A DNA stretch of 64,000 nt from Devosia sp. ZB163 (GTDB lineage Bacteria; Pseudomonadota; Alphaproteobacteria; Rhizobiales; Devosiaceae): positions 910,331-974,330 of the forward strand of contig NZ_JAQRMY010000001.1 in the NCBI RefSeq assembly GCF_028613635.1, written 5' to 3'. A model generated the notes under the pieces. The model worked only from the letters and a program-made list of their open reading frames with translations, searched no databases and was not told the DNA's origin. The position numbers and the translations under genes were made by a program. Below are positions 4,820 through 26,407 of the stretch, one piece after another; positions within the stretch are counted from its first letter, which is position 1; the number at the start of each line of letters is the position of its first letter.

Positions 4820-5091
4820 TGTGCTCAGCCGGCTGTAAATCGGATGCCCCCCAAGACGCCGCCGACGGTTCCGGAAGACACCGGGCGATCACGGCGACCG
4901 CATTTTCTCCGGAATGCCAAGACTTCGCAACGCTCAGCAGTGTCAAACTGCGACGATTTGCGAACAAGCGCGCGAACGATACACTAACCGACGGGGCCGT
5001 GGGGAAAACCGCTATCGATTCTCGCAAGAATCCGGTAGCCGTGAAGTTGACGGGTGCGTGGCGCGCGGCCGCGTGACTGGTGGGGCAGGTT
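4820..5091 (-). promoter_or_regulatory. Divergent intergenic region between crp-like gene and sctD
   Basis: About 270 bp between two divergent genes must hold both promoters. It contains several loosely related TTGCGA/TTCGCA-like words (around 4924-4968), which could be regulator half-sites, but I cannot define a clean palindrome or a sigma-70 promoter here. No convincing reading frame. Confidence 0.35.
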
Positions 5092-7242: not shown

Positions 7243-7317
7243 GCGCTATCGCTTCGCCGGCACCGCGGGCGGCCGGGAGTCCTGCAGCCGTCGCGTAGGT
7301 GCTCGACTTCCGAGCAG

Positions 7318-7455
7318 TTACTGGACCCGAATATCTCCGAGTCTGGCTCTTGACGTACCAGCGGCCTGGTACCGGTTATGAACTGGGCGCCGCGTTCCAG
7401 GGCGACGACGGCAATTGACCAACGCCCTCGCTCCCACGTCCAACTGGCGCTCAGA
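7318..7455 (+). pseudogene. Decayed duplicate of the sctD 3-prime end
   Basis: The spacer between sctD and the secretin gene is not random. Bases 7379-7418 encode ELGAAFQGDDGN then a stop, against ELGAAFQRDDGY in sctD (copy around 7163-7196). Around 7431-7449 TCCAACTGGCGC matches CTCAACTGGCGC at the sctD terminus. Upstream, AGCGGCCTGGT at 7360 aligns with AGCCGGCTGGT at 7141, and similarity weakens toward 7318. Frameshifts and an internal stop show it is not expressed as protein. It looks like the remnant of a tandem sctD copy, or of a related gene, most of which has been deleted. Confidence 0.7.
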
Positions 7456-7459
7456 AGTT

Positions 7460-10117: not shown

Positions 10118-11278
10118 ATGCATGATCAGGGAAGCAACGCCCGAATCTCGGAGTTGGACGGACTCCGAGGGCTGGCTATCGTCTTCGTCCTCCTGTGGCA
10201 CTTCGTGGGTGCACTTTCCGGCGATGACATCGTTCGCTCGCTGACGATATGGGGCAGAACGGGGGTCGACTTCTTCTTTGTGCTGTCTGGCTTTCTCATC
10301 ATCGGAATTCTGGTCGACGAAAGAGATAGCAAGCATCTGCTCAAGGTATTTTACTGGCGTCGATTCATGAGGATCTATCCGCCATACGCAATGCTGATTG
10401 CATTGTACTGGCTTTGTTATGTGTGGGTTGGTGAGAGTCCAGCGTTCAATACCAATGCAGGCGCAGTAGTGCAGCTGCTCGCACAGGTGACATTTACGTG
10501 GAACTGGCTGATGGCGGTCACGGATAGTGCCGTCGCACGGGGATTCTCCGTAACTTGGTCAGTTGCGATCGAAGAGTGGTTCTACCTCATAGCGCCATGG
10601 GTCATGATAGCCACACCGCGCCGATACCTCGTCCCGCTGCTGCTCGCGATTGGTGCAACCTCCATTCTGGCGAGGGGGGCGGCACACCTGCTATTTGGCG
10701 CGAACCATTCCCTCGCTCCTTATGTCCTGCCGCCTTTTCGGCTGGATGGGTTCTGTGCCGGTGGACTGCTTGCGTTGGCGATGCGGAATAAGCTTGCGAA
10801 GCAAGCATTGCTCAAGCACGCGTCGAAGGCCGCGAAATGCGCTCTTGCCTTTGTCATCTCGACGCCACTAACCATCGCGGTGATACAAAACGACCTCGAC
10901 CGGCAGATGTATCTGTGGGGGCACACGTATCTAACTGTCGGGTACGCGATAGTGCTCCTTTGGGCGATTCAGAGCGCTGGCGAGAAACGCACGAAATGGC
11001 TCCGCGTCAAGGCGCTAACGGAAGCTGGTCGGTACTCGTACACACTGTATCTGTTCCATCCCCTATTCATAAGCCTGTGCTTCACCTTGGCTGGAAAGCA
11101 AAGAGAAATTGTTGCCAGCTGGCAGGACGTGTTGCTTGCGGTGAGCGCGTTTGTGGTCAGCCTGCTGTTCAGTATTGTTTTCTACTGGGCCGTAGAAAAG
11201 CGCGCGTTGGCGCTCGGAAAGCGTATGGCGTACCGCGATGCTGCCTTCTCGGGCGAGCGTCAGGCCACCCAGTCCTAG
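10118..11278 (+). CDS. Acyltransferase family 3 membrane protein (OafA/WbpC type)
   Basis: 386 residues; start chosen by AGGAGG seven bases upstream. The N-terminus has the family signature RISELDGLRGLAIVFVLLWH with the conserved His28, then about ten membrane helices, including FFFVLSGFLI and a basic loop (YWRRFMRIYPPY) typical of O-acetylases. Such proteins transfer acetyl or other acyl groups from cytoplasmic donors to sugars of lipid-linked or polymerised glycans in the inner membrane. It lies at the edge of a polysaccharide locus, and the P. aeruginosa O5 locus also carries a family 3 acyltransferase (wbpC), so O-acetylation of the locus's own glycan is likely. It faces the C5-epimerase-like gene. 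Confidence 0.85.
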   Translation: MHDQGSNARISELDGLRGLAIVFVLLWHFVGALSGDDIVRSLTIWGRTGVDFFFVLSGFLIIGILVDERDSKHLLKVFYWRRFMRIYPPYAMLIALYWLCYVWVGESPAFNTNAGAVVQLLAQVTFTWNWLMAVTDSAVARGFSVTWSVAIEEWFYLIAPWVMIATPRRYLVPLLLAIGATSILARGAAHLLFGANHSLAPYVLPPFRLDGFCAGGLLALAMRNKLAKQALLKHASKAAKCALAFVISTPLTIAVIQNDLDRQMYLWGHTYLTVGYAIVLLWAIQSAGEKRTKWLRVKALTEAGRYSYTLYLFHPLFISLCFTLAGKQREIVASWQDVLLAVSAFVVSLLFSIVFYWAVEKRALALGKRMAYRDAAFSGERQATQS

Positions 11279-11320: not shown

Positions 11321-13009
11321 TTACTGGCCTTGAGGCACGACGCTGCCCGAGTCCACGAGATACCGATACAGCGCCAGGGTATTGCCGAAGGTAACGACGT
11401 TACCCAGTTCCATCTCGAAGGGGCCTTGGTCAGGCAGGTTTTCCGGATCCGTCCACACGTGGATGGTCAGCTTTGACAACCGATCTGTCAGAGACTCGTA
11501 TTTTGGGAAGCCGACCTTCGACAACAGCACTAGGCTGGTTTCGCCCGCTCTCAAGCCCGGATAATAGCGTGTGGCACGCGTCCCATGGTCGTCTTCCACA
11601 GTGATCCCAATAGCGATGTCGCGGGAGGGCGATACCTCAATCCCAAACAAACTGGTCGTTGATATCGGGATTTCAGTTTCAAGGGCGATGTTTGCGCGGG
11701 TGCTGGTGTAGTGCGCAGGATCAGCCGCTGCAGAAAAGAGGGGGGCGACTGTCACGGTCCTGTCATCAATGGCAACTGCGTCGAACGCGACGCTCACGGT
11801 TGGGGTCAATGTAGCGTGCTGATCCCGGCGCTCAGGTAGCGGAGGCATCTCGAACAGGGTTGCTTGCACCCCATTGTCGCTTATCGCTTTGCAGGATGAG
11901 GGTGGGGCAGGCGGGGTAGCAACGATGAAGGCGCGTTTGAGGAATTCCTCGCCCTGACGATGCGGGAAGTTCGACTCGGTTCGCCACAGCTCGCCGTTTG
12001 GCAGCTTGCATTCCAGGCTGACGGGGTAAGTGTCCAGTAGATATGGATGCGGCGCTCCTACGTGGGAGAAAAGCAGCTTTCCGTCGTCCATCGCGTGTAC
12101 TGGATACTGTAAAGCCAGATCGCGTTGCCTCACCAGTTGCATTTCAGTAAAGAGCTTCTCGCCTGTTAGTGCAGCGAGTGAGGAGAGTTGGACGCTCTCG
12201 AAAATCACGTAGTGGGGAGGAGAAACGGAGGCCTCATTCAGCATGTACAGCGACCAGTCGGGGATCGCATTGAAGGCGTCCGCCTTGGCCCTAGTACCTG
12301 CTACGGCGCATTGATATGCCTCCACTAACTCGGGATCCTGCGTAGCAGATGCGAGTAGGTAAAGTGCCTGCATTCCATATAGATGGCCGTTGAGTACGAA
12401 GTACTCGTCATTGACACTCATGTTTGGCCAGCTGAACTCCGACAGCCAGCACCCACTTGCATCTCTCCAGATTGAGCCTCCCGCTGTTGGAGACTTTATC
12501 GCCTGTCGGAGCGCCGCGAGGGCGAGCGTGCGCAAAGTTACGTCCTCGAGCACCTCGGAGGCCGCATACAGCGCCAGCGGAGTAGCAAAGCCATCCATAC
12601 CCGACCACCAGCCACTCTTTAGGTCTTCATAGTCAAAGTCATAGTTCCACCGCACGATCTGCCCGCCCTCCCGAAGAACGTTGGGCCACTTGAGTAGAGT
12701 GTCGACACCGGCGCGTGCGTCGTCTCCCAGTTCGGGGTCTCCGGTCCTGGCGTAGTCGTAGAGACGGCGATAGAGATGTTCGGCGACGCGGAGTGGATCT
12801 CCTTTGGCAGTCATGGCCTCCCAATCTGTCGCAACCTCACGTGTGGTCGGGTAGAACCAAAAGAACGGCGCGACCAAAGGAAGTGCGACGTCGACGACTG
12901 AAGATGATTGCTTGACCGGCAATGCATCCCAGCGCGGAGCGGGACTTGAGCTGGTCCACCAAGCCAGCGTCAATGCCGAGATTGCGAGAGCTGCAACAAG
13001 AATCGGCAT
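11321..13009 (-). CDS. Membrane-anchored D-glucuronyl C5-epimerase-like protein
   Basis: 562 residues from ATG at 13009; a TTG four codons upstream is possible, and longer frames run into the glycosyltransferase gene. Residues 2-18 form an N-terminal membrane anchor. About residues 100-340 match the C-terminal catalytic domain of heparan/heparosan glucuronyl C5-epimerases: GWWSGMDGFATPLALYAAS, WLSEFSWPNMS and YFVLNGHLYGMQALYLLA, an alpha/alpha barrel. The C-terminal 200 residues form a beta-rich domain. C5-epimerases invert uronic acids in finished polymer outside the cytoplasm, consistent with the anchor. The neighbouring genes make diacetamido-mannuronic acid, so conversion to the L-gulo epimer is an attractive inference. 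It could instead be a lyase or hydrolase using the same fold. Confidence 0.65.
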   Translation of the reverse strand: MPILVAALAISALTLAWWTSSSPAPRWDALPVKQSSSVVDVALPLVAPFFWFYPTTREVATDWEAMTAKGDPLRVAEHLYRRLYDYARTGDPELGDDARAGVDTLLKWPNVLREGGQIVRWNYDFDYEDLKSGWWSGMDGFATPLALYAASEVLEDVTLRTLALAALRQAIKSPTAGGSIWRDASGCWLSEFSWPNMSVNDEYFVLNGHLYGMQALYLLASATQDPELVEAYQCAVAGTRAKADAFNAIPDWSLYMLNEASVSPPHYVIFESVQLSSLAALTGEKLFTEMQLVRQRDLALQYPVHAMDDGKLLFSHVGAPHPYLLDTYPVSLECKLPNGELWRTESNFPHRQGEEFLKRAFIVATPPAPPSSCKAISDNGVQATLFEMPPLPERRDQHATLTPTVSVAFDAVAIDDRTVTVAPLFSAAADPAHYTSTRANIALETEIPISTTSLFGIEVSPSRDIAIGITVEDDHGTRATRYYPGLRAGETSLVLLSKVGFPKYESLTDRLSKLTIHVWTDPENLPDQGPFEMELGNVVTFGNTLALYRYLVDSGSVVPQGQ

Positions 13010-13172
13010 GCGCAAATGTCTCAAGGAAGTGCTCCGATAGTATGAGTTGCCATTTCCGGCATTAGTGCGCCGCCCGGCTACAATGATTGCTAGCGTCGAG
13101 CTGTCGCGAGCCTCGGCTGGCGGCGTGCCGGGCGCTGACTGCCGTCCGGCGCTGTCGAGGCTCCGCTCGGGT

Positions 13173-14462
13173 CTATGAGATTGCGACGATGCTCGGGGTG
13201 CCGCCACTGCCTTCGGAGCGTGATTGACCCGGTCCCTTGTTGTCTGGACCGAGGCACAAGTCCAGGTAGTCGCGGCCGAGCCTGGCATAGCTGCGGTTGG
13301 CGATCAGCCACTCGCGGCCGGCCATCCCGATTGCTTGGCGCTCCGCTTCCGGCATCGCGGCGTAGCGTTCGATTTCGGCGCGAAGTGCAGCGACGTCCCC
13401 TGCCGGCACATAGCTTCCTGAGGCCGCCTCATTGATCATTGAGGGGTAGCCTGAGTAGGAGGCGACAACTGGCCTGCCTGCCAGCATGTAGTCTGTTACC
13501 TTGTTCAGGGATTGGCCAAACTTCCAGATCTTGGAGGGGCGCACCGAGAAGTAGAGCAGATCGCATCGTTCAAGGACCGAGTGCACCACGTTTTTGGGTA
13601 CGCCCGGTGCAAAGGTGACGTTCGCGAGGTCGGCGCATTCACGCTGGAACGTCTCTTTCAGCCCGCCTTCGCCGACAACCAGAAATTGAACGTTGCTGTT
13701 GTCCTGCATGCGTCTGGCGCAGGCGAACAGCGTCTCCAGTGCGTTTGCCATGCCAATAGTCCCGGCGTAACAGACGATAAACTTGTTCTCCGGGAGGTAC
13801 TGCCGTGCGTAGTCTTCGGGCATGGGAGCCGCCTGTGCGGCGGCCCCTTCATCCACGCCCATAGGAATGCAGAACACGGGCGCAGCCGATCCAGCCACCT
13901 CGGCAACGTGTTCCGCAAGGTTGGGCATGGTGCCGACGACGGCGTCGCTGCGCCTATACGCTAGTCTCTCTATCCATCCCAAAGTCAGGACGAATGGATT
14001 GTACGGACTGAATCCGCCTTCCTCGATGACTGTGAGGGGCCAGATGTCGCGCACCTCGAAGATAAGGCGACAGCCGTAGCGGCGCCGGAGTAGCAGGCCG
14101 TTGAAGATCGTCAGCAAGGACAGGCTGGACACGATGATCGCGTCGGGGCGGGGTAGGCCGTCCTTCGGCAGGCGCCAGAGCCGCCACTCGAAATCGAGCC
14201 AGCTAATGGCGCGCGAGATCGACTTGGAGCCTCGGTACTTCTTAGTGCGCAACCTGGTGACCTCAACCCCGTCCACAACCTCACGCGCCTGTGCGCCGTC
14301 AACTGCCCGAGGACTCGTAAGGTGGTTGGAGTCAGAAGTGAGGATGACACAGCGGTTGCCGTTCTTCCTTATCTCTCGCATTATCGAGAAGGCGCGGGTG
14401 CTCCACTTTTGTTCGCGCGGCAGCGCAATATACTTCGAGACGTACCAGATGCAGGCGTTCAC
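13173..14462 (-). CDS. Glycosyltransferase family 4 (WbpJ/WbuB-like)
   Basis: 429 residues with a GTG start. The N-terminal Rossmann-like domain holds KYIALPREQKWSTRAFSI and RLIFEVRDIWPLT, typical of the WbuB/FnlB-associated GT4 group. The C-terminal domain has the donor-binding run VCYAGTIGMANALETL, FLVVGEGGLK, NVTFAPGVPK and LNKVTDYMLAGRPVVAS. There are no membrane spans, so it is a cytoplasmic or peripheral enzyme. Related proteins transfer N-acetyl-fucosamine-type or aminouronic sugars to the lipid-linked unit. The position matches wbpJ in an O5-like gene set. The C-terminal tail (GPGQSRSEGSGG) is low complexity. The actual donor and linkage cannot be told from the sequence. Confidence 0.8.
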   Translation of the reverse strand: MNACIWYVSKYIALPREQKWSTRAFSIMREIRKNGNRCVILTSDSNHLTSPRAVDGAQAREVVDGVEVTRLRTKKYRGSKSISRAISWLDFEWRLWRLPKDGLPRPDAIIVSSLSLLTIFNGLLLRRRYGCRLIFEVRDIWPLTVIEEGGFSPYNPFVLTLGWIERLAYRRSDAVVGTMPNLAEHVAEVAGSAAPVFCIPMGVDEGAAAQAAPMPEDYARQYLPENKFIVCYAGTIGMANALETLFACARRMQDNSNVQFLVVGEGGLKETFQRECADLANVTFAPGVPKNVVHSVLERCDLLYFSVRPSKIWKFGQSLNKVTDYMLAGRPVVASYSGYPSMINEAASGSYVPAGDVAALRAEIERYAAMPEAERQAIGMAGREWLIANRSYARLGRDYLDLCLGPDNKGPGQSRSEGSGGTPSIVAIS

Positions 14463-14630: not shown

Positions 14631-15713
14631 CTATCTTATGTGCTGACTTAGGATACTTACTATCTCGGGCGCCGCGTTGCCGTGGCCATAGAGTGAATCG
14701 CCCTCGCCTCGGCGCTCTCGCGCGGCCAGGATAGCTTGTGCTACGGCGACGGTATCGGTGGGAGGGGCAAGTGTGTTCCAACCGCAATCCAGCAATTCTA
14801 CCCACTCGGTTTCATCGCGCAGCGTCACGCAAGGGACACCCTGGAAGTAGGCCTCCTTCTGAACGCCGCCGGAGTCGGTGGCAATGACTGCAGCGGCGCC
14901 TTCGAGACGGATCATGTCGAGATACCCGACGGGCTCGACGACTCGAATCCGGTCAGGCCAACGGCCGGCTCGGTCTAGAGCCGCGCGGGCGCGCGGGTGC
15001 AGGGGCAGGACCACAGGGAGCGTCCGTGCTACCATCTCAAGAGCGTCGATGATCGTGAGCAGGCGCGCAGGATCGTCGGTGTTCTCGGCCCGGTGAACCG
15101 TCGATAGCACGTACTGGCCCTCCGACAGGGCAAGGCGCGCTAGAACGCTGCTCACACTACGCGCACGCTGGCCGAATTGGCGGATAGCGTCGAACATGAC
15201 ATCGCCGACGTCGTGCACGCGCTCTGCCGGCAGACCCTCGCGCGCTAAGTTCCGCGCCGCTGCCGCCGACGGGACGAAAAGCAGGTCCGCCAGATGATCG
15301 GTAAGGACGCGGTTCTGTTCTTCGGGCATGCGCCGATTGAAAGAGCGTAGGCCGGCTTCCACATGAACAATCGGAATGTGCATCTTGCTGGCGGCAAGCG
15401 CGCCGGCGAGCGTCGAGTTGGTATCGCCATAGACAACGACTGTGTCCGGCTTGAGTTCAAGGAACGCCTGCTCGAGTGCAGCTAGCATGGCGCCGGTCAT
15501 CGCCCCGTGAGTGCCACCCGATATTCCTAGGAAGCGGGCCGGTTTCGCGATCCCGAGTTCTTCGAAGAACACGTCCGACATGTTGGCGTCAAAGTGCTGA
15601 CCAGTGTGAACAATGGCCTCTTCGAACGTACCGTTCGCTGCAATCGCACGCGACAGGGGTGCGGCCTTGATAAACTGGGGGCGTGCACCGACCACCGTGA
15701 CGATGCTCTTCAC
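14631..15713 (-). CDS. wbpI: Non-hydrolysing UDP-aminosugar 2-epimerase (WbpI/WecB family)
   Basis: 360 residues, full length for the family. Conserved parts are GARPQFIKAAPLSRAI (4-20 region), YGDTNSTLAGALAA, HVEAGLRSFNRRMPEEQNR, TVHRAENTDDP and the uridine-binding SGGVQKEAYF. The His of TVHRAEN and the Asp and Glu residues of the first motifs are the usual catalytic set. WecB converts UDP-GlcNAc to UDP-ManNAc; WbpI does the same inversion on UDP-2,3-diacetamido-2,3-dideoxyglucuronic acid. With wbpA, B, D and E in the same locus, the WbpI reaction is more likely. The start overlaps the glycosyltransferase stop by 4 bp, so it ends the hisH-hisF-wbpG-GT operon. Confidence 0.85.
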   Translation of the reverse strand: MKSIVTVVGARPQFIKAAPLSRAIAANGTFEEAIVHTGQHFDANMSDVFFEELGIAKPARFLGISGGTHGAMTGAMLAALEQAFLELKPDTVVVYGDTNSTLAGALAASKMHIPIVHVEAGLRSFNRRMPEEQNRVLTDHLADLLFVPSAAAARNLAREGLPAERVHDVGDVMFDAIRQFGQRARSVSSVLARLALSEGQYVLSTVHRAENTDDPARLLTIIDALEMVARTLPVVLPLHPRARAALDRAGRWPDRIRVVEPVGYLDMIRLEGAAAVIATDSGGVQKEAYFQGVPCVTLRDETEWVELLDCGWNTLAPPTDTVAVAQAILAARERRGEGDSLYGHGNAAPEIVSILSQHIR

Positions 15714-16870
15714 GGCAGTATGCTCCGGCCGGTCGGGGAGGCTTCAGCAGCTGTAGGTTGATCCCTTAATAGCCGCTCGTACAGGCTTGTCAGTTGCTGT
15801 TCCTCGACGGTCCAGTTGTAGCGCTGGTGCACCGCCCGACGGCCATTCTCGCCGAGGCGGCGAGCCAGCAGAGGGTTGGCTGCGAGCGTATCGATTGCCC
15901 GCGCGATGGCCCTTGGGTCTTCGGGATCTACGCAGATACCGCAGTCGCTGTGCTCGATTATGTCGCGCCATAGCGGAAAGTTTGATCCGATCACGGGAAT
16001 ACCGGCCGACATATACTCGAACATCTTGTTTGGCTGCGCGTCGATGTGGTTTGGCAACGGCAGGAATGTCACGATTCCTGCCAGCGAGCGGGCCATCACA
16101 TCACGCACACCGCTGCGCGGGATCTGGCCGAGCTCATCGACCGCGCCCCAGCCGGAGTTCTGCACGAGTCTGTCGCGCAAGCCCCTTTCCCCAAACTCAC
16201 CCGCAAGCGCGAGGCGCACGCCGGTACTGCATAGATGCAGGGCAGAGACGACTTCGTTGAGGCCGCGGATGGAGGAGACCCCGCCGACGTAGCAGACGAC
16301 CGGCTCCTTGTTGTCCCACGAGACGGGCGTCTCCAGCTCACCCAGCAGAGGATAGTTGTTGATCACGGTGGTGGGCACGCCCATGTCGCGGAATTTCTGG
16401 CCGATCTTGGGAGTGGCGCCGACTACGTGGTCGATCCGCTTGCAGGCGTAGGTTTCAAAAGCGCTGGCGGCCAATGAGATGGCTCGACGCAATGCAGGCT
16501 TGATGTATGGCTTCGAGAGAATCTGCCGCGGAAAATCCTCATGCGCGTCGAAGACAACCTTGCGTCCGTCGCGCTTGAGCGCGAGCCCCGCGGGCAGGAG
16601 CTCCGGATCGTGCAGGTGATAAATGTCGGCACGTAGCCTACGGGCGCGTGCGAGTACACGTCGTGTCGCGGTCAGTGCCCGACCCATCCTGCCGCCGGGC
16701 TTGCCCACGTCATGGACCTCAACGCCGTCGTGAATGGCGTCACCAAGACCGTCTGCGACAATCAGCGACACGTGATGTCCGCTCGCCAGCAGGCTACGGC
16801 ATTGTTTGACGAAGATCCTGACATCGTTTCGCGGGTGCGCCGACGTCAGGTGTGCAACCCGAAACGTCAC
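15710..16870 (-). CDS. Glycosyltransferase family 4 (WbpH-like)
   Basis: 386 residues, GT-B fold. N-terminal motifs: FRVAHLTSAHPRNDVRIFVKQC (HPRxDxRIF is typical of this GT4 branch), IYHLHDPELLPAGLALK and VVFDAHEDFPRQ. C-terminal motifs: PVVCYVGGVSSIRGLNE, NKMFEYMSAGIPVIGS, and YNWTVEEQQL near the end. Cytoplasmic, with no membrane helices. It is embedded, with 4-bp overlaps on both sides, between wbpI and wbpG, the same position as wbpH in P. aeruginosa O5. It probably adds one of the diamino-mannuronic acid residues to the lipid-linked unit, but the sequence does not define the donor. Confidence 0.82.
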   Translation of the reverse strand: MTFRVAHLTSAHPRNDVRIFVKQCRSLLASGHHVSLIVADGLGDAIHDGVEVHDVGKPGGRMGRALTATRRVLARARRLRADIYHLHDPELLPAGLALKRDGRKVVFDAHEDFPRQILSKPYIKPALRRAISLAASAFETYACKRIDHVVGATPKIGQKFRDMGVPTTVINNYPLLGELETPVSWDNKEPVVCYVGGVSSIRGLNEVVSALHLCSTGVRLALAGEFGERGLRDRLVQNSGWGAVDELGQIPRSGVRDVMARSLAGIVTFLPLPNHIDAQPNKMFEYMSAGIPVIGSNFPLWRDIIEHSDCGICVDPEDPRAIARAIDTLAANPLLARRLGENGRRAVHQRYNWTVEEQQLTSLYERLLRDQPTAAEASPTGRSILP

Positions 16871-18006
16871 GAATAGATCCTTACGTCGCGCCCGCGTACA
16901 CGACGATAGAGTTGCTGAGCCTGCTTGATGGCCCGTTGCATTCCGTCCCAGTTGGCAAAGTCGGAATACGAGCGCTTTGGGCCGGCCATGTAGCGTGCAA
17001 AATCGTCTCTACTTATACCCAGCTTCTTGCAGAAATATGCTAGGTCGGAGTCGAGGTCCTTGGCTGCATAGAGGTGCTCCTCTAGCGACTCGGCAGCCTC
17101 GTCGCGGCTTATCTGACCCGAGACGATCAGGCTCGACAAATGCGGGCGGCGCTTGTCGTAGCCGAACCTCTCAGGCAGGTAGTAGTTCTGAAACAGCTTA
17201 GTAAAGCGCGACTCTCCGTGCTTGCGGCCATAAGGGCGCCAGCCGATCGACACCAGCGTGTCGACAGCCTGCTGTTTGTCGTACTTCATGAAGTTGAGCG
17301 GCCGAACGGTCCGCATGCCGTGCACGAACGGATACGTCAGATAGTATTCCAGGAAGCTGACGGTCGGATAGGCCTTTAGCGCGCGTGTTCCGAAGCGCCT
17401 GTGGATTGCCTTGAGGTTAATCGCATCCATGGCGCTGCCGTGCCAGCTGTCGGGGAAAATACCCTCCGTCGCGATGTTGCCGCCGCTCATGACGTAATTC
17501 ACGTTGTTGCGGACAGCGTAGCGGTAGAGGCTCGCAAAGAAGGCGTGGTCCTGCGGTACGTCTTGGTTGGAGACCCCGGACTTGAGGTAGGACAACTGAA
17601 GATCGCGCATCTCCTCCCAGTCGATGACGATTGTGTGCAGGTCGTAGCCGCATGCCTTGACGATGGTCTCGACATTGGAGACCGCGAGTTCGCTGTTCCA
17701 GCCAGCATCGACATGCACGACCAGCGGTCGCAATCCCCATTCCTTGGCGCGCAAGGCTAGGTAGGAACTGTCGACCCCGCCGCTCAGGCCAATTATGCAG
17801 TCATACTCCTTTGCGCGGCCGGCAGCCTTGATTTCGTCGAGCTTCTCAGCCCATAGGCGCTCGCCTTCTGCGTTGGGAAACCAGCGCCGGCGTGTCTCGA
17901 CCTCGAACTTGTGACAATGGCTGCAGACACCTTCTTCGTCAAAAGTGATCTGCGGATCCGAGGTATCCATCACGCAGCGAGTGCACACTTGGTAGGGGCG
18001 AGTCAT
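16867..18006 (-). CDS. wbpG: N-acetyl sugar amidotransferase WbpG
   Basis: 379 residues. An N-terminal CxxC (CTRC) and a second CxxC (CSHC, near residue 30) suggest a zinc site. The PP-loop SGGVDSSYLALRAKEWGLRP at about residue 85 marks an ATP pyrophosphatase that adenylates a carbonyl oxygen. In P. aeruginosa and Legionella/Campylobacter relatives, WbpG-type synthetases use ammonia delivered by HisH2/HisF2 to turn an N-acetyl group into an acetamidino group on a nucleotide-linked or lipid-linked sugar. HisF2 and HisH2 genes follow directly upstream with 4-7 bp overlaps, so the complete three-protein machine is present. Predicted product: the amidine derivative of the locus's diacetamido uronic acid. 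Confidence 0.9.
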   Translation of the reverse strand: MTRPYQVCTRCVMDTSDPQITFDEEGVCSHCHKFEVETRRRWFPNAEGERLWAEKLDEIKAAGRAKEYDCIIGLSGGVDSSYLALRAKEWGLRPLVVHVDAGWNSELAVSNVETIVKACGYDLHTIVIDWEEMRDLQLSYLKSGVSNQDVPQDHAFFASLYRYAVRNNVNYVMSGGNIATEGIFPDSWHGSAMDAINLKAIHRRFGTRALKAYPTVSFLEYYLTYPFVHGMRTVRPLNFMKYDKQQAVDTLVSIGWRPYGRKHGESRFTKLFQNYYLPERFGYDKRRPHLSSLIVSGQISRDEAAESLEEHLYAAKDLDSDLAYFCKKLGISRDDFARYMAGPKRSYSDFANWDGMQRAIKQAQQLYRRVRGRDVRIYS

Positions 18007-18764
18007 CTATTCTGCATCAGCCTCTCGAGCGTCGCATAAGGTGGATATGTGATGAGCACGGCGCGATGCTTGCCGTGGTAGACGAAGAACGCGCCTGCAG
18101 CCACCGCGCTGGCACCTGCCTCGATAGCGACTCGGATGTCATCTAGACTCCCTACTCCCCCCAGCGCAACCAGCGGAACCTCGATGTCATTGGACGCAAT
18201 GCGGATGAGATCGGCATCAACCCCTTGCATAGTCCCATCCCGATCCACAGCATTGAGCACTACCTCGCCTGCCCCTGCACCGACGACGCGACGGAGGTGG
18301 CCCTGCCAGTCTCTCTCCGTGCGGCCGCTCGCCGACCAATAGAGCTTGTATCCGGAGCCCCAGCTCTTCTTGACGTCAACTGCGGCCACTACTGCCTGAC
18401 TGCCGAACTTCGTGGCGATACGTGTAATCAGCTCAAGGTTTCGGGCGGTGGCAGTCTGTAGGCTCACCTTCTCAACCCCAAGGGCAAAAAGCCGCTCTGC
18501 ATGCTCGATCGTGGAAATGCCTCCGCCGTAGCAAAAGGGCATGAAGCACTCTGCGGCCAACTCCTGGATGGCTTCGAAATTCGGGGCGCGCCGCTCGCGT
18601 GACGCGGTGATGTCGAACACCAGCAGCTCGTCGACTTCCTTCTCGTTGAAGATGCGGATGGCGTTGAGGGGATCGCCGACATAGCGTGGACTGGAAAACC
18701 TGGTCGTCTTTACCAAGCCGCCGTTACGCAGCAGCAAGGTAGGGATGACGCGATGTCTCAGCAT
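18003..18764 (-). CDS. hisF: HisF-like ammonia-channel subunit of the amidotransferase (HisF2)
   Basis: 253 residues, complete beta/alpha barrel. VIPTLLLRNGGLVKT replaces the IxCLDVxxGRVVKG start of true HisF: the catalytic Asp11 of imidazole-glycerol-phosphate synthase is Leu here, while the second one, Asp130, is kept in VAAVDVKKS. Phosphate-binding parts such as CYGGGIST and VPLVALGGVGSLDD are kept. Loss of Asp11 argues against a histidine-pathway role and fits the WbpG-linked paralogue group, which passes ammonia from HisH to WbpG. It overlaps wbpG by 4 bp and hisH by 7 bp. Confidence 0.88.
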   Translation of the reverse strand: MLRHRVIPTLLLRNGGLVKTTRFSSPRYVGDPLNAIRIFNEKEVDELLVFDITASRERRAPNFEAIQELAAECFMPFCYGGGISTIEHAERLFALGVEKVSLQTATARNLELITRIATKFGSQAVVAAVDVKKSWGSGYKLYWSASGRTERDWQGHLRRVVGAGAGEVVLNAVDRDGTMQGVDADLIRIASNDIEVPLVALGGVGSLDDIRVAIEAGASAVAAGAFFVYHGKHRAVLITYPPYATLERLMQNR

Positions 18765-19381
18765 GCGTAGGCCGCGAAGCGGCTCAACAGCTGCATGCCA
18801 AACTTGTGACTCTTTTCGGGGTGGAACTGTGTGCCCCAGACATTGCCCCGCCCGTAGATGCAGACAAACTCCTCACCATAGCGGCACGTGGCGATCACGT
18901 CTTCGGAATTATTGCAGCGCGCGTAGTAGGAATGCACAAAGTAGAATCGCCTCTCCTGTTCATCCTGCTCAACCAGCGGGTTGGGGCGCTTCACGTCGAT
19001 AGTATTCCAACCCATATGCGGCACCTTGAGGCGCTCGCTTGTCCGATGGTCGGAGAACTTGACGAAAGAGGCGTCGACAAATCCTAACCCCTCGCAACCG
19101 GGCGCCTCCTCACTCTCCTTCGCCAGAAGTTGCATGCCGAGGCAAATGCCGAGTATGGGGGTACGCTCCGCGACGACCTTTTGCTTGAGAGCGTCGACCA
19201 GCTTGCACTCATGAAGAGCCCGCATTGCGGTGCCGAACGCGCCGACGCCTGGCAGTACCAGGGCTTTGGAGCGCTCTACCTCATCGGCCGTCGCGACGAG
19301 GTCGACCTCGATGCCGACGTGGCGGAGCATGTTCACGACCGAACCAACGTTGCCGATGCCGTAGTTCACTATTGAAATCAT
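18758..19381 (-). CDS. hisH: HisH-like glutamine amidotransferase subunit (HisH2)
   Basis: 207 residues, class I glutamine amidotransferase. It starts with ISIVNYGIGNVGSV and carries the nucleophile Cys in GICLGMQLL (about residue 79) and the His-Glu pair in TQFHPEKSH near 185. It releases ammonia from glutamine for the partner HisF2, for use by WbpG. It is the first gene of the leftward operon hisH-hisF-wbpG-GT4-wbpI, and its promoter must lie in the 75 bp shared with the divergent wzy-like gene. Histidine biosynthesis is unlikely because no other his gene is nearby and the HisF partner lacks a catalytic Asp. Confidence 0.88.
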   Translation of the reverse strand: MISIVNYGIGNVGSVVNMLRHVGIEVDLVATADEVERSKALVLPGVGAFGTAMRALHECKLVDALKQKVVAERTPILGICLGMQLLAKESEEAPGCEGLGFVDASFVKFSDHRTSERLKVPHMGWNTIDVKRPNPLVEQDEQERRFYFVHSYYARCNNSEDVIATCRYGEEFVCIYGRGNVWGTQFHPEKSHKFGMQLLSRFAAYAC

Positions 19382-19456: not shown

Positions 19457-20827
19457 GTGGCGGTCGTTCCTGGAAGTGAGGCGTTCCTTGGTCGTGTTTG
19501 GTTGATATTGACGATGTGGGCGAGACGCGCAATGGGTCCTGCAGTCGGATTCGTACTAGAAAATCCGCTAGTATCGTTCTTTTCTGCGGTATTCATGATT
19601 CATGCGGCGTCGGTGATCTATGTTACTGGCGATGATTACATATACTATACAGCATTGTATGGTGTCCTGGTATGGGTGTCGTACCTGTCATCGAGGTCGT
19701 TGACTGGGTCATTTGTCTCCGGGGTCACCGGGCGAGTCGCTGACATCTTGAGGCTGCCGGATAGGCCGCTGGCAAGCACGCTCGTGGATATTTTTGTATT
19801 TTTGTTCCCCGTTGTTTACTTCGGGGTGGCGGGGCGAGTGCCGGCCTATGACATGCTGCTTAGCGCAGATTATTTTGCTAACGCAGGCCTGAGGCATGAA
19901 TTCCACGACGGCATTCCAACCCTCCTTAGCTACGCGGGAGAGTACTACATCAAGGCTATAGCGCCGCTGTGGTTGCTTTATTCATTTATCTTTCGCCGCA
20001 AGGCATATTGGCTGCTGGCTGTATATCTAGGGCTGTTCGCCCTCGGAATGATCACCAAATCGGTGGTGGTGATCATTTTCGTGCCGACATTGCTCTTCCA
20101 GGTCTTCGGAAAGAAGCTGGCTCACGCCGCCATCACTGCGCTGATCATACTTGGCGTGATCTACGGGAACATTCTTCTGCAGGACAAATCGCTCTCGGCT
20201 CCTCTTTCTCTTGATATCACTGAGCAGAGCCCACATATCACTGAGCAGAGCCCACGCCCCTCGGACGAACTCTCATCAACCGAGGAACCGGCAGGCGAAG
20301 CCTCGCTAGTTGAGCGCGCGTCTGGCGTGGCCCGAGGCGTCTACGTCGCGAGCGAAGCGATCCTTGCTCGGCTATTCTACAAGAACGGGTTGACCGTCAA
20401 GTTCTGGATGGAGAGCTACTCGACCGATTTTCCTTCAGAGAAAGGGTGCGGTTACCGCTGGTATGCGTCTCTAGTAGGCTGTGAGTTTGTCTACATTCCC
20501 GAGAAGATATGGCTGAAATACTTCCCCGAGCTGCATGCCCGTGGCATTGGAGGTAGCGTCTCAGCGGCGAACTACATCAACGGATACGCCAACTTCGGAA
20601 CGCCGGGAGTGCTTGCGTCTGGCGTGCTCACGGGCCTGCTGCTCGCCTTGCTGACCGCCGCGTTTCCTAACCCCGTAACAGCACTGGCCGTAAATGCGGC
20701 GGCCATTGCCCTGACCTTCGAGAACACACTCAGCATACTGCTTAACTCCGGGGGCTGGGGGTTGTTCGTCGCCTTGGCCGTGCTCTTTCTGCCGCGCCGT
20801 GCGACCGAGTACAGGCTGCGGGGATAG
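19457..20827 (+). CDS. Wzy-like polysaccharide polymerase (polytopic membrane protein)
   Basis: 456 residues with a GTG start; ATG at 19514 or 19532 may be the true start because the GTG has no good ribosome site. About ten hydrophobic helices are split by a large polar loop (about residues 255-350) holding a tandem TEQSPHITEQSP repeat. A second polar stretch contains YRWYASLVGCEFVYIPEKIW. Wzy proteins have this topology with two large periplasmic loops and almost no sequence conservation, so the call depends on topology and position: the locus has a Wzx flippase and would otherwise lack a polymerase. It is the only rightward gene inside the locus and is noticeably AT-richer than its surroundings. 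Confidence 0.65.
   Translation: MAVVPGSEAFLGRVWLILTMWARRAMGPAVGFVLENPLVSFFSAVFMIHAASVIYVTGDDYIYYTALYGVLVWVSYLSSRSLTGSFVSGVTGRVADILRLPDRPLASTLVDIFVFLFPVVYFGVAGRVPAYDMLLSADYFANAGLRHEFHDGIPTLLSYAGEYYIKAIAPLWLLYSFIFRRKAYWLLAVYLGLFALGMITKSVVVIIFVPTLLFQVFGKKLAHAAITALIILGVIYGNILLQDKSLSAPLSLDITEQSPHITEQSPRPSDELSSTEEPAGEASLVERASGVARGVYVASEAILARLFYKNGLTVKFWMESYSTDFPSEKGCGYRWYASLVGCEFVYIPEKIWLKYFPELHARGIGGSVSAANYINGYANFGTPGVLASGVLTGLLLALLTAAFPNPVTALAVNAAAIALTFENTLSILLNSGGWGLFVALAVLFLPRRATEYRLRG
20214..20255 (+). repeat. Perfect 21-bp tandem duplication inside the wzy-like gene
   Basis: Two adjacent identical copies of a 21-bp unit beginning ATATCACTGAGC (20214-20234 and 20235-20255). The unit adds seven residues (I-T-E-Q-S-P-H frame) to a polar loop. 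In-frame tandem repeats like this can expand or contract by slippage. Confidence 0.9.
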
Positions 20828-20853: not shown

Positions 20854-22182
20854 CTATCGGTCAGTTGCGTTCGTTGCTGCCATCTGTAGCGACAGGAAGG
20901 TGTACGCGGCGTAGAGCACGCTGCCGACCAGCGAGAGCCCCAACAGTGTATTCTTAGCGTCGAATAGGTAGCCACCGATCGACAAGGTGGCGAGGAAAGT
21001 CGCCAGAAGTAACCATTGCCAGGCCATCAGCAGGCGCAAGCGTTCGGCGAGGTAGAACGACCAACTCAGTGGCGATGCGATGAACTGCAGGCAGACGAGA
21101 GGCGCCAGTATCTGGCCGTACACGCCGGCCTCTCGCCACTGGGGCCCCATGAACAGCTCAAACAGCAGTGGGCCCAGCGCGAGAAGGGTCGCGAACAGCA
21201 CCACGGCGAGTGCGGCGAGCGCCCGGAAAGTCATGTTCATTGTGTTCACGAAACTGCCGGTGTCGTGGCGTTCGCTGGCGGCGCGCTGCCGGAAGGTCTC
21301 GCCCAGCCCTTGAACCAAAACAGCCGTCCCTGCCCAAATGCGCTGGAACATCGTCAGGTATCCTGCTGCTGCGGCTCCGAAGAAGGTCGAAAAGAACAGC
21401 ACGGGCAGGTTGGTAGCCAGGGTGTTGGCCAGGTCCGATGGCAAGGAGAACAGTGGGAAATCGCGGTACTTTCGCGCCTGGGCGACGATGTCGGCGCCAG
21501 TAGGGATCGCGGTAGCGTTACGTCGGAGATACAGCGACACGCCCAGCGCAAGGCAACTTGCGAGGTAGCCCGCCGCCGCTGCTGCTGCCAGTCCGGCAGC
21601 CCCAGCACCCAGGAGGCCGAATACCACCGAGGCCAGTGCGGTCGTAGTCGCGCTGGCGATACGGGCCATGCTCGAAAGTGCAAACCGGCGACCACGGATG
21701 GCCCAATTGATTAGGATTTGCGCGCTGCCGGCGAACGAGGTGGAAACGACCACCAGTATCGCCAGTTCCGCATGCTGACGTATCAGAGAGACATTCATCA
21801 GCCAGGCTACGCAAACAGCTCCGCCCAACAGGGCAGTCGTCGCAAGCACGAAACAGGCAGCCACCATCGCTACGGCGATGGCATCGGTTTCCCGCTTGGG
21901 CAGGAGGATGGCTGCCTCGTAGCGCCCCGTCGATGCAATGGTGCCCAGTCCCGTAGCCGCAGCTGTGACGCCAAGCAGTCCGAAGTCCTCCGGCGAGTAC
22001 AGGCGCGCAAGGATGGGCAGGATCAGGACAGGCAGGGCAGCAGCTGCAAGCAGGCCTAGCGTGTTCGTGAGTGTGTCGCGCGCGTAGCTGTTCTCGCGCA
22101 GGACTGCAGCCAGCCATTTGCGAACCGCGCCAGCCGCTTTGGTGAGATCCTCAGGCAACTGAGTCGCGCAGAGCCGCGGCAA
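20854..22182 (-). CDS. wzx: Wzx-type lipid-linked oligosaccharide flippase
   Basis: 442 residues, about twelve membrane helices, polysaccharide-biosynthesis (MOP/MVF) exporter family. Typical features are an N-terminal RDTLTNTLGLLAAAALPVLILPILARLYSPEDFGLLGV, an FQRIWAGTAVLVQGLGETFRQRA loop and a helical C-terminal half. It flips the undecaprenyl-linked repeat unit to the periplasm. The start is TTG either at 22182 or at 22158; both overlap the wbpE 3-prime end, indicating coupling. It closes the leftward wbpA-wbpB-wbpD-wbpE-wzx operon and converges with the wzy-like gene. Confidence 0.88.
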   Translation of the reverse strand: MPRLCATQLPEDLTKAAGAVRKWLAAVLRENSYARDTLTNTLGLLAAAALPVLILPILARLYSPEDFGLLGVTAAATGLGTIASTGRYEAAILLPKRETDAIAVAMVAACFVLATTALLGGAVCVAWLMNVSLIRQHAELAILVVVSTSFAGSAQILINWAIRGRRFALSSMARIASATTTALASVVFGLLGAGAAGLAAAAAAGYLASCLALGVSLYLRRNATAIPTGADIVAQARKYRDFPLFSLPSDLANTLATNLPVLFFSTFFGAAAAGYLTMFQRIWAGTAVLVQGLGETFRQRAASERHDTGSFVNTMNMTFRALAALAVVLFATLLALGPLLFELFMGPQWREAGVYGQILAPLVCLQFIASPLSWSFYLAERLRLLMAWQWLLLATFLATLSIGGYLFDAKNTLLGLSLVGSVLYAAYTFLSLQMAATNATDR

Positions 22183-23272
22183 TCATGTGTTGAGTGTCCG
22201 CGGAGAGGTAAGGGTGGAAAGGCAGGCTGAGCACGGTTTCGGCAGCCAGCTCGGACTGCGGTAGTGGCGATCCCATCCGGCAGAGCGAGGCATAGGCTGG
22301 CTGCTTATGGAGTGGTACCGGATAGTGGACCGCTGTGGGAATGCCTTTCGCGCCTAAGGCAGAAACCACCGCCTCGCGATCGGCAACCCGGACGGTGAAC
22401 TGGGCCCACACGCACGTGTTGCCCCGTCGGACCGTCGGCAGGCCGATGGCGTTGTGACCGGCCAACAGTTCGAGATACTGTTGGCCCAAGGCGATGCGCT
22501 GGTCGATCTCCCACTCGAAGCGTTCGAGCTTGGCCAGAACGATGGCGCACTGCAGCGTGTCCATGCGACCGCCGACGCCGATGCGAGTGTGCCAGTAGCG
22601 GCGCTCCTGGCCGTGGGTACGGATCTCGCGAGCAATCTGGGCCAGTCGATCGTCGTCCGTCAGCAGAGCCCCACCGTCTCCATAGCAGCCAAGCGGTTTG
22701 GAAGGAAAAAAGCTGACGCAGCCAAACTTGGACAGCCCCGAGGAGCGGCGGCCGTGATGGGTAGCGCCAAGGCTCTGAGCAGCATCTTCTATGATTGGAA
22801 GGCCGTGGCGATCGGCAATCGCCTGCAAGGCCAGCATATCCGATGTCTGACCATAGAGCGAGACAGGGATTATCGCCCTGGTCTTGTGGGTGATCGCCTG
22901 TTCGACCAGCGCAGTATCGATATTGTAGGTGTCGGGTTCGATATCAACGAAAACCGGCGTTGCGCCGACCAGCACAATCACTTCTGCAGTGGCGGCAAAG
23001 GTAAAGGGGGAGGTGATCACCTCGTCGCCCGGGCCTACGCCCAGCGCCATGAGGGAGATCAACAACGCTTCGGTGCCGGACGAGACGCTGACGCAGTGGC
23101 GCACGCCGACATACTCGGCAAGTTTACGCTCCATTTCGGCGACTTCCGGGCCCATGATGTACTGTGCATGGTTGAGCACGGTCTGAATACGGGCATCGAT
23201 GCTCTGCTTGAGCAGGGCGTACTGTGTCTTGAGATCGATGAAGGGAAGCGCCTGGGTCATAGTCGCCTGCAA
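22151..23272 (-). CDS. wbpE: DegT/DnrJ/EryC1 aminotransferase WbpE
   Basis: 373 residues, PLP-dependent fold I. Conserved: [16 protein letters not shown] at the start, [50 protein letters not shown], and the PLP lysine in [15 protein letters not shown]. WbpE transfers an amino group from glutamate to C3 of the 3-keto uronic acid made by WbpB, giving UDP-GlcNAc3NA. It overlaps wbpD by 16 bp. The order wbpB-wbpD-wbpE is exactly that of the characterised P. aeruginosa pathway, which supports this specific substrate over other sugar aminotransferases of the family. Confidence 0.92.
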
Positions 23273-23817
23273 GTATCCTCGGTGATTTGGTAGGTGGTCC
23301 CGGCCTCATCCGTGACGACGCCTGTGCCATTGAGGCGTGTGCCGCTTTCCGACATCCAACCGACGCGCCGGGCTGGGACCCCGACCATGAGGGCATAGTC
23401 CGGCACGTCCTTGGTGATCACGGCGCCGGCGCCAACAAAGGCAAACTCGCCAATGGTGACACCGCAGACCACGGTACAGTTGGCGCCGAGCGTCGCGCCG
23501 CGCCGCACGACTGTCGGCCGATACTCGCTCTTCCGACTGACTGCCGAGCGCGGATTATGGACATTGGTGAAGACCATGCTCGGACCGCAGAACACGTCGT
23601 CTTCCAGCCTTACAGCGTCATAGACCGAGACGTTGTTCTGGATCTTCACGTTGTTGCCAATAACAACATCGTTGCCCACAAAGACGTTCTGTCCCAGCGA
23701 GCAATCGCTGCCGATCTGGGCGCCGCCGCAGACGTGCACCCAGTGCCAGATGCGTGTGCCATCGCCCACAATCGCGCCGTCGTCCACGATCGCCGTTGGG
23801 TGGATCGTGACCATCAA
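23257..23817 (-). CDS. wbpD: Hexapeptide-repeat N-acetyltransferase WbpD
   Basis: 186 residues, left-handed beta helix with many [LIV]-G-x-x-x-x hexapeptides ([40 protein letters not shown]). The conserved [18 protein letters not shown] loop is the signature of WbpD/WlbB proteins. It acetylates the 3-amino group of UDP-GlcNAc3NA with acetyl-CoA to form UDP-2,3-diacetamido-2,3-dideoxyglucuronic acid. Start ambiguity is one codon only (two ATGs in tandem). It overlaps both neighbours (4 and 16 bp). Confidence 0.92.
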
Positions 23818-24875
23818 TAGTCAAGTGGCAGGTTGATGCGCTGCCCGTCGCGGGCAGATTTGTAGATGGCGATCAGCGTCTCGAGGCTCTTGAGGCCCTC
23901 GCGACCATCGGTTTCCGGCTCGCTCTCGCCGCGCAGAACGCGAATGACATTGTCATAGTAGAGCGGGTGGCCAAACCCATAGACCGAAGTGGTTTCGTAG
24001 CTTGCACTGGCGACATGGGCGTCGTCCTCGTGCGGTTCTGCGAATTCCCAGTGCTGTATCTCGTTCACGGCCACACCGCCAATTCGGACCGTGCCTGACT
24101 CTCCGATAATGGTAATGCTGCCCTCGAGATTCTTCGGGTAGGTCAGCATGGTCACGTTCATGGACCCCATGGCACCGGACCGCCACTTGATGCTTACCAC
24201 GCCGGTGTCTTCCACCTCGATATTGCGCGCCAGGGTGCCGGTATAGGCATAAAGGCTCTCGATTGGGCCAATCAGCCAGTCTAGCAGATCAACATAGTGG
24301 CTAGCCTGGTTCATGAAGGCGCCGCCATCGAACTCCCACGTGCCGCGCCAGCTGGCGGCATCGTAGTAGTCCTGCGGGCGCGTCCAGAAGACATTGATAT
24401 TGACCATGTAGATGCGGCCAAAGCGCTTCTGATCTACCGCGTGCTTGAGCATTTGCAGAGTCGCGTTGCGACGGTTCTGCTTGACCACGAAGAGCCGGAC
24501 GTTTGCATCGTCACAGGCCTTGACCATATCGAGGCCGTCTCGCCAACGCGTCGACATCGGCTTTTCCGTTATGACGCTACGACCCGACGCAGCAATCTGC
24601 TGCGCCTGCGCGCTGTGCAACCCACTCGGCGTGGTCAGTACGACCACGTCGGCCGCCGTGCTCTTCAACAGTTCGTCCAGGCTGCCGTGGCCCCTGGCGC
24701 CAGTCTTCTCGACGGCCTTCGCCAGCGCCGTCGGGTCGATGTCACACACATCCACGAGTTCAGCCCGATTGCCATGCTGAGCTATTGCCGCAAAGTGATT
24801 CTGCGCGATCCGCCCGGCGCCGACGAGAGCGATGCGAATGTTGCGGTCGGTGATCGGAGGGGGAAACAGACGCAT
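23814..24875 (-). CDS. wbpB: Gfo/Idh/MocA-type UDP-GlcNAcA 3-dehydrogenase WbpB
   Basis: 353 residues. N-terminal NAD-binding Rossmann fold with [17 protein letters not shown] near residue 15 and [21 protein letters not shown]; the EKPMSTRW motif carries the catalytic-site Lys. The C-terminal beta-sheet domain includes [20 protein letters not shown] with the conserved His. WbpB oxidises C3 of UDP-GlcNAcA, coupled to 2-oxoglutarate recycling of its tightly bound NADH, ready for WbpE. It overlaps wbpD by 4 bp and follows wbpA after 3 bp. Confidence 0.92.
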
Positions 24876-24878
24876 GGA

Positions 24879-26204
24879 TCAGGACTTCACAACATTGGGG
24901 GCGGGCTCCAGGTATCGCCCGCGAGTGTCGACGATGAGCCTGGCATGCTTGAGGATGTGCGCGAAGTCATACTCGTCGTGGTCCGTTGCGAGCAGCACGC
25001 AGTCGTAACTCTTCAGGCTCGCTGCGCTCAGATCGACGCTGGACAGATCGAAATGAGTGTGATTCCGAAGCTTGGGGAATGTCGGCACGTAGGGGTCGTT
25101 ATAAGCGATGGAGGCGCCAAGCGCCTGAAGCTTCTCCATCAGGATGACGGACGGTGACTCGCGCATGTCATCGACATTTTTCTTGTAGGCGACGCCCAGC
25201 ACGAGAACCGAGGAACCGCTTACGGCCTTGCGTTGACGGTTCAGCGCGTCGGTGACCTTGGCAACGACATAGTCCGGCATGTTGGAGTTGACCTCGCCGG
25301 CCAACTCGATGAACCGGGTCGTGACGCCATATTCGCGGGCTTTCCAGGTCAGATAGAATGGGTCGATCGGAATGCAATGACCACCCAGACCTGGACCGGG
25401 ATAATAGGGAACAAAGCCGAATGGTTTGGTGGCTGCGGCTCGGATGACCTCGTGGATGTCGATCCCCATGCGGTCGGCCACGATCTTCATTTCGTTGACG
25501 AGGCCGATGTTGACCGCCCGGTGGATGTTCTCCAGCAGTTTTGTCATCTCGGCTGCGCGCGTCGAGGTTACCGGGACCAGCTTGTCAATCACTTGGCCAT
25601 AGAGCGCCAATCCGACATCGAGACACGCGGGGGAATAGCCCCCGCATACCTTGGGGATGGTGTTAGTGCTGAACTTGGCGTTGCCCGGATCCTCGCGCTC
25701 GGGCGAGTAGACCAGGAAGTAGTTTTCACCGACCTTGAAGCCGCTCGATTCGATACGCGGCAGCAGCTCCTCATCCGTTGTCCCAGGATAGGTGGTGCTT
25801 TCAAGCGACATTACCTGGCCTTCCCGCAGGTGGGGCAGCAGAGAGTCCACGGTGTCAAGCACGAAGCTTAAATCAGGTTCGCGGTGTGCGTCGAGCGGGG
25901 TGGGAACGCACAGGATCAAAGCGTCTACCTCGGCAGCCCGGCTGAAATCCGTAGTTGCCTCGAAGCCATGGTCGATCGCGTCGAGCAAGCGATCCTTCGA
26001 AATGTGCTTGATGTAGCTTTGGCCGCTGGACAGCTTCTCGACTTTCTCCGCGTCGATGTCGAAGCCAACGACCTTGTAGCCGACCTCAGCGTAGCGCAGT
26101 ACCAGCGGCAGGCCCACATAGCCCAGCCCGACAATGCCGATCATCGCTGTCTTGTCGGCAAGGCCTTGAACCAGCTTGGATTTCGAAGAGTTATCTAGCG
26201 CCAT
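24879..26204 (-). CDS. wbpA: UDP-N-acetylglucosamine 6-dehydrogenase WbpA
   Basis: 441 residues from ATG at 26204, with GAGTGGG upstream; a longer in-frame start adds 20 low-quality residues. UDP-glucose/GDP-mannose dehydrogenase family, three domains. [21 protein letters not shown] binds NAD. The catalytic Cys lies in [17 protein letters not shown], and the C-terminal UDP-binding domain has [19 protein letters not shown]. It oxidises C6 of UDP-GlcNAc to the uronic acid, the first committed step to the diamino uronic acids of this locus. First gene of the wbpA-B-D-E-wzx operon. Confidence 0.93.
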
Positions 26205-26407
26205 TACCCACTCGACCTGATCTTTTGCTGCCGCTCGCGCGGCGTTTCTTCCCCGGCTGGCCATTGTTCGCCGGGGCCTTGACCGTCTCGTTGCCTCTGC
26301 ACATCCGATTGCCGCGACCTTGCGCGGAATAGCGTGGACATCAGGATTCGGAAATCGATCTGTGGCGCGATGCTCGGATCTAGACGCCGCAACACAGACA
26401 TATCCAG

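Follow-up and report, generated by a model that had tools for sequence, protein, structure and literature searches.

The D-glucuronyl C5-epimerase Glce (6HZZ, 6I01, 4PW2), the human enzyme of heparan sulfate formation, belongs to the PF06662 superfamily, has a toroid fold and acts on polymer-bound uronate, turning glucuronic acid of heparosan-type chains into iduronic acid. The alginate C5-epimerases form another family, with a right-handed beta-helix, and AlgG is periplasmic. These mannuronan C5-epimerases (AlgG and its kin) invert D-manno to L-gulo residues at the level of the polymer (PMC13308652; papers given by PMC number are cited from excerpts). The bacterial RED-C5epi of Bermanella marisrubri, named in PMC13308652 and PMC12834895, belongs with Glce to the PF06662 superfamily, and Agl32 of Halobacterium salinarum is a C5-epimerase that acts on a short glycan and belongs to a surface-glycan locus (PMC13308652). 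Here, a candidate C5-epimerase gene (11321..13009, minus strand) is described from a 64,000-nt stretch of Devosia sp. ZB163 (hereafter the window, whose coordinates are used unless another locus is named). Its product, the window protein, is a Glce-superfamily member with a Glce-type fold, and with a probability of about 60% it is a membrane-anchored periplasmic uronate C5-epimerase that converts a D-manno diamino uronate to the L-gulo form.

According to PMC3210612, the hexuronic acid of Listonella anguillarum and V. ordalii, in capsular polysaccharide and O-chain alike, is to be revised to gulo. PMC4815439 depicts both guluronic and mannuronic acid in serogroup O2 of P. aeruginosa, reports identical biosynthesis clusters and locates the genes responsible for the difference outside them. 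No epimerase for the gulo sugars is named in the excerpts of either paper. No enzyme for the L-gulo isomer of 2,3-diacetamido-mannuronic acid (L-GulNAc3NAcA) appeared among the literature titles listed, an absence that is weak evidence given the poor coverage of this chemistry, and the epimerase gene was not found in P. aeruginosa, whose strains were not searched one by one. A Glce-type enzyme tied to loci for the D-manno sugar (ManNAc3NAcA) and to a prophage makes the gulo/manno question testable, and activity on a diamino uronate would extend a family characterised on glucuronic acid (GlcA) to a new class of sugar.

Family, fold and catalytic residues of the window protein

The open frame spans positions 11321-13288 on the minus strand, and translation from the Met codon at 13009 gives 562 aa. 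C5-epim_C (PF06662), the sole Pfam match, covers residues 117-291 (profile positions 3-183 of 188, E-value 1.4e-26) and scores 93.6 bits (cut-off 23.3), and no NCBIfam model matched at an E-value of 1e-3. A single hydrophobic segment is present, at the N-terminus. In the predicted model, a helical toroid domain (about residues 34-303) is followed by a beta-rich C-terminal domain (about 304-562), whereas the beta-rich domain of Glce precedes the toroid. Fold searches with this model recovered a Glce-type toroid, and Glce outranked the next fold by 5.6 Z units. Top rows of Foldseek with a root-mean-square deviation above 20 Å (Cry toxins, xanthanase, IBDV VP2 and others) were discarded as poor superpositions. 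An earlier note, made from the letters of this DNA, had assigned the protein to the glucuronyl C5-epimerase family and fold and had quoted the motifs GWWSGM and FVLNGHLYGMQALYLL; both are present (residues 133-138 and 204-219), and the profile score and toroid fold bear the assignment out.

Catalytic residues of the window protein and its relatives were matched to human Glce by sequence alignment, using the list of Debarnot 2019 as relayed in PMC13308652; PMC12834895 names Tyr578 and Glu499 for removal and return of the C5 proton. Four of the five residues are kept: E499 as E191 (codon 12437..12439, its position obtained by arithmetic), N510 as N207 (12389..12391), Y560 as Y255 (12245..12247) and Y578 as Y267 (12209..12211), all on the minus strand. 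Agl32, in contrast, has none of the Glce catalytic residues in place (PMC13308652). On the catalytic tyrosines, whose loss the earlier note had regarded as fatal to an epimerase, the outcome is divided, with Y560 and Y578 present and Y500 replaced by Phe (F192, codon 12434..12436, minus strand). Because of this replacement the window protein is not filed as Glce proper (EC 5.1.3.12). It also differs from Glce in its proposed substrate, in setting and in having D139 and E271 at the places of A446 and H582. These two residues were considered as a mark of an acetamidino substrate and rejected: the relative at locus L033 (loci are numbered L, genomes G) has WbpG and HisF beside it, yet carries A446, Q447 and H582.

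A carbohydrate-binding or assembly factor that is no longer catalytic, or a toroid-class enzyme of changed activity such as a lyase or hydrolase, is an unlikely explanation of this protein. Against it stand the four kept residues; Y500 is also substituted in four other aligned members (Ala in L033, Gly in L012, Phe in L046 and Met in L048), and three close long-form relatives, those of L010, L034 and a prophage, keep the Tyr. The lead of Glce in the fold comparison speaks against this explanation as well.

About 100 extra residues lie between the Y560 and Y578 regions in the members of L035 (6673-8034), L048 (9155-10732) and L012 (9326-11053), of which L035 and L048 sit in Wbp loci.

The diamino-uronate locus

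The window gene set matches the five-enzyme route to UDP-ManNAc3NAcA given in PMC10622841. All five enzymes are encoded on the minus strand: a WbpA-type UDP-GlcNAc 6-dehydrogenase (24879..26264; PF03721, PF00984, PF03720 and TIGR03026) and, by annotation and PDB search, WbpB 3-dehydrogenase (23814..24875), WbpD N-acetyltransferase (23257..23817), WbpE aminotransferase (22151..23272) and a WbpI-type UDP-GlcNAc3NAcA 2-epimerase (14631..15713). The best PDB relative of WbpI is the UDP-2,3-diacetamido-2,3-dideoxy-glucuronic acid 2-epimerase (8sxv, E-value 3.8e-127; next enzyme type 3.7e-81), that of WbpE is P. aeruginosa WbpE (3nyu), and WbpD and WbpB were placed on 3mqg and on 3q2i and 3q2k, respectively. 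The nearest solved relatives of WbpI and WbpE are thus enzymes of the diacetamido-uronate route, in agreement with the earlier description of the locus. Beyond that description, an acetamidino gene set is present, with a WbpG/WbuX amidotransferase (16867..18006; TIGR03573, 318.9 bits against 203.2), a HisF2-type acetamidino modification protein (18003..18764; NF038364, 334 bits against 310) and a HisH-type glutamine amidotransferase (18758..19381; over the cut-off of TIGR01855, a general HisH model), all on the minus strand. Since WbpG and HisF2 match their models, a fraction of the sugar is expected to bear a 3-acetamidino group, and the substrate of the window protein may therefore be the acetamidino rather than the diacetamido form.

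Annotation adds a Wzx-type flippase (20854..22182) and two glycosyltransferases (15710..16870 and 13173..14462), so that the minus-strand order is WbpA, WbpB, WbpD, WbpE, Wzx, HisH, HisF, WbpG, glycosyltransferase, WbpI, glycosyltransferase and the candidate epimerase. The intergenic gaps are -32 to +3 nt within two gene runs, and the final two gaps are 168 and 163 nt.

The protein could also be a C5-epimerase for another uronate of the same chain, either GlcA or GlcNAc3NAcA converted to the L-ido form. The Glce members that have been characterised use GlcA as substrate (PMC13308652), and UDP-GlcNAc3NAcA, an intermediate of the same route, could also be incorporated. However, the annotated portion of the locus has WbpA as its one nucleotide-sugar 6-dehydrogenase (the genome elsewhere was not searched for a UDP-glucose dehydrogenase), WbpI yields the manno form, and the linkage described below is with Wbp genes and not with a GlcA route. 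This alternative is likewise unlikely, if slightly less so than a protein without epimerase activity.

Distribution of PF06662 and linkage to Wbp genes

PF06662 is rare, being found in 1 of 136 genomes of the window's family, 1 of 385 of the class, 3 of 398 of the phylum and 9 of 397 of the order, and in 4 of 74 genomes of the family and 8 of 292 of the class of the L010 genome; these samples share genomes, and the centre genome is counted in each. A single-sequence scan of genome contigs with the window protein gave 11 pattern matches and no relative, and plasmids and phages gave no match. In total, 21 distinct genomes had PF06662 at an E-value of 1e-3 or better. The 11 with E-values of at most 4e-6 were followed and one was dropped, which left ten. 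The linkage count does not include G887, G926, G987, G1011, G1048, G1089, G1401, G1444, G1505 and G1529 (1.7e-4 to 9.5e-4); five of these exceed the cut-off, with neighbours within the frame. The dropped genome, G635 (L003), encodes a protein of the Thioredox_DsbH/DUF255 type whose partial C5-epim_C match (26.2 bits) exceeds the cut-off, and no Wbp gene was found in the 20 kb around it (L006).

In eight of the ten followed genomes the member shares its locus with Wbp genes, in differing gene orders, and the link between epimerase and diamino-uronate pathway put forward in the earlier note is therefore a recurrent one. The count becomes 8 of 11 with G635, 7 of 9 without L048, and 6 of 8 without both the window, which is the given member, and G1211, which was found using an alignment containing the window. 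L007, L008, L009, L011 and the prophage stand outside it. Relatives at the Wbp loci (percentage identity in brackets) are WbpI (60%), a glycosyltransferase (55%), WbpG (66%), HisF (55%) and HisH (44%) at L010, where the contig stops past WbpI; WbpI (58%), WbpG (66%), HisF (55%), HisH (42%), WbpD (73%) and WbpE (60%) at L034/L036; WbpB (71%), WbpD (71%), WbpE (62%), WbpI (58%) and WbpG (51%) at L033/L037; WbpB (65%), WbpD (70%), WbpE (65%) and WbpI (56%) at L035; WbpA (35%), WbpB (67%), WbpD (77%), WbpE (53%) and WbpI (52%) at L045, with an adjoining Wzx gene; WbpB (65%), WbpD (77%), WbpE (54%) and WbpI (49%) at L047; and WbpA (57%), WbpD (55%), WbpE (43%) and WbpI (56%) at L048, where the WbpI match begins 68 nt from the epimerase frame.

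Among 74 genomes of Burkholderiaceae, WbuX was over its cut-off in 6 (8 at an E-value of 1e-3) and a WbpB orthologue at 1e-60 was present in 11, giving a union of 16. All four epimerase genomes fall within this union (hypergeometric probability 0.0016, or 0.0073 without G1211, figures that ignore relatedness and the closeness of the genes, which are no more than a few kb apart). In the window's family WbuX occurs in 27 of 136 genomes and PF06662 in one, so most WbuX-type genomes there are without the epimerase.

These data also bear on whether the gene simply drifts among glycan loci, so that its Wbp neighbours say nothing about substrate. Glycan loci do collect many modifying genes, two members (L012 and L046) are located elsewhere, and L011 adjoins glycosyltransferases, another glycan setting. 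However, eight of ten followed members lie in loci of one pathway in differing gene orders, and a convergent acyltransferase accompanies the gene in five loci, one of them a prophage, which makes drift very improbable.

Three further observations concern these loci. In L034, a Gfo/Idh dehydrogenase gene of a different type is found some 3 kb away from the epimerase gene and may or may not serve in place of WbpB. In L047 an asparagine-synthase-like amidotransferase gene (6735-8564, minus strand) lies near the epimerase and Wbp genes, and perhaps makes uronamides. A Priestia megaterium plasmid (NZ_CP151784.1; L008, 1298-10462) carries a classical-type C5-epimerase gene together with genes for a DegT aminotransferase, a GNAT acetyltransferase, glycosyltransferases, a nucleotide-sugar dehydrogenase and a 2-epimerase 49% identical to the window WbpI, perhaps a Gram-positive parallel.

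Proposed reaction

In the favoured reading, diamino-uronate C5 epimerization, the operon would make UDP-ManNAc3NAcA, part of which WbpG, HisF2 and HisH would convert to the 3-acetamidino form. The glycosyltransferases would assemble these sugars into a lipid-linked unit for Wzx to flip. In the periplasm, the window protein would abstract the C5 proton of a D-manno uronate, either in this unit or in the lengthening chain, and supply one on the opposite face, much as Glce turns GlcA into iduronic acid, so that D-ManNAc3NAcA would become L-GulNAc3NAcA. This proton chemistry follows from the family, and action on polymer-bound uronate would be shared with Glce and the alginate enzymes, although the alginate substrate has no amino groups. 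Several features favour action after flipping: the protein has an anchor at its N-terminus, its gene lies in a Wzx setting and has an acyltransferase partner, and the prophage copy comes without sugar-nucleotide genes of its own. The window protein thus probably flips a rare surface sugar and alters the outer coat of the cell.

Several points weigh against this reading. Phmmer with the window protein gave no significant match in the PDB (best E-value 0.33, to an unrelated protein), and the resemblance to solved Glce is therefore at the level of profile and fold. Y500 is replaced by F192. In the model, segment 249-266, which contains Y255 and borders Y267, scores below 50 in the predicted local distance difference test, and the C-terminal domain is of poor quality. 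The L048 member, kept in the count, is a weak partial match of 28.4 bits, and those of L012 (Bosea) and L046 lie outside Wbp loci. A WbpB orthologue at an E-value of 1e-60 is missing from G1211 and G1278, which leaves their exact sugar uncertain. Glce is the sole member discussed here with known activity. The epimerase proposal of the earlier note therefore holds in part: family, fold and pathway link support it, and one of three catalytic tyrosines does not.

A convergent acyltransferase and a prophage copy

The gene next to the epimerase encodes an AT3 acyltransferase (10118..11278, plus strand; PF01757, E-value 3.3e-37), convergent with it across a 42-nt gap and probably acting on the same chain. 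This ACYLTRANSFERASE partner, an AT3-type acyltransferase convergent with the epimerase, recurs in five loci (the window, L010, L034, L033 and the prophage locus L013); in L009 the two genes adjoin on the same strand. No acyltransferase relative was found in L045, L046, L047, L048, L035, L012, L011, L008 and L007. In L010 (10573-12674, minus strand) the acyltransferase and an SGNH domain occupy two overlapping frames, in L034 a single frame; from the sequence, the split may be a frameshift or assembly error.

Scanning viral contigs with the window and L010 proteins produced 84 pattern matches, of which one was a relative: L013, on contig IMGVR_UViG_2657245016_000003 (30% identical over residues 36-518, E-value 2e-77). 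An earlier scan with a three-sequence alignment had given 63 pattern matches and no relative, and two further viral scans yielded solely this prophage contig. The prophage epimerase had no match among phages and plasmids. Upstream of it lie tail fibre, endolysin and Rz-like spanin genes, and downstream the convergent acyltransferase gene, whose product matches the PHROG models 'O-acetyltransferase' and 'O-antigen acetylase', and then an integrase. This prophage end (4869-9141) looks like a lysogenic-conversion module. The window Wbp genes had no match within 32 kb of prophage sequence. Short DNA matches were to an Achromobacter phage (85%), a Bordetella phage (81%) and two Rhizobium phages (85% over 65 bases), and our guess is a host close to Bordetella or Achromobacter.

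In P. aeruginosa, prophage D3 alters an O-antigen of acetamido and acetamidino mannuronates through Iap and Wzy-beta (PMC4815439); the excerpted account names no C5-epimerase, and the copy found here is on a different phage. It suggests that a phage can switch the coat by flipping one stereocentre in place. We tentatively propose that the epimerase and its convergent AT3 acyltransferase form a mobile two-gene cassette that remodels diamino-uronate O-antigens in bacterial loci and a prophage, a possibility that falls somewhat short of even odds. If true, the phage would be a serotype converter that inverts sugar configuration within the assembled chain, and the cassette could explain L-gulo diamino uronates in strains with identical clusters, such as P. 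aeruginosa serogroup O2.

Other genes of the window

A plus-strand gene between Wzx and HisH (19457..20827) encodes a multi-transmembrane protein with six hydrophobic segments and no match in Pfam or NCBIfam. A 25% relative is encoded at L033 2004-3065, and L034 4580-5884, located between WbpG and HisF, encodes another hydrophobic protein with no assigned family; all three are candidate Wzy polymerases. Upstream of WbpA lies an NAD-dependent epimerase/dehydratase gene (26408-27478, minus strand) with a 32% relative in L033, and a secretin gene (PF00263; 7460-9706, minus strand) lies near the glycan locus.
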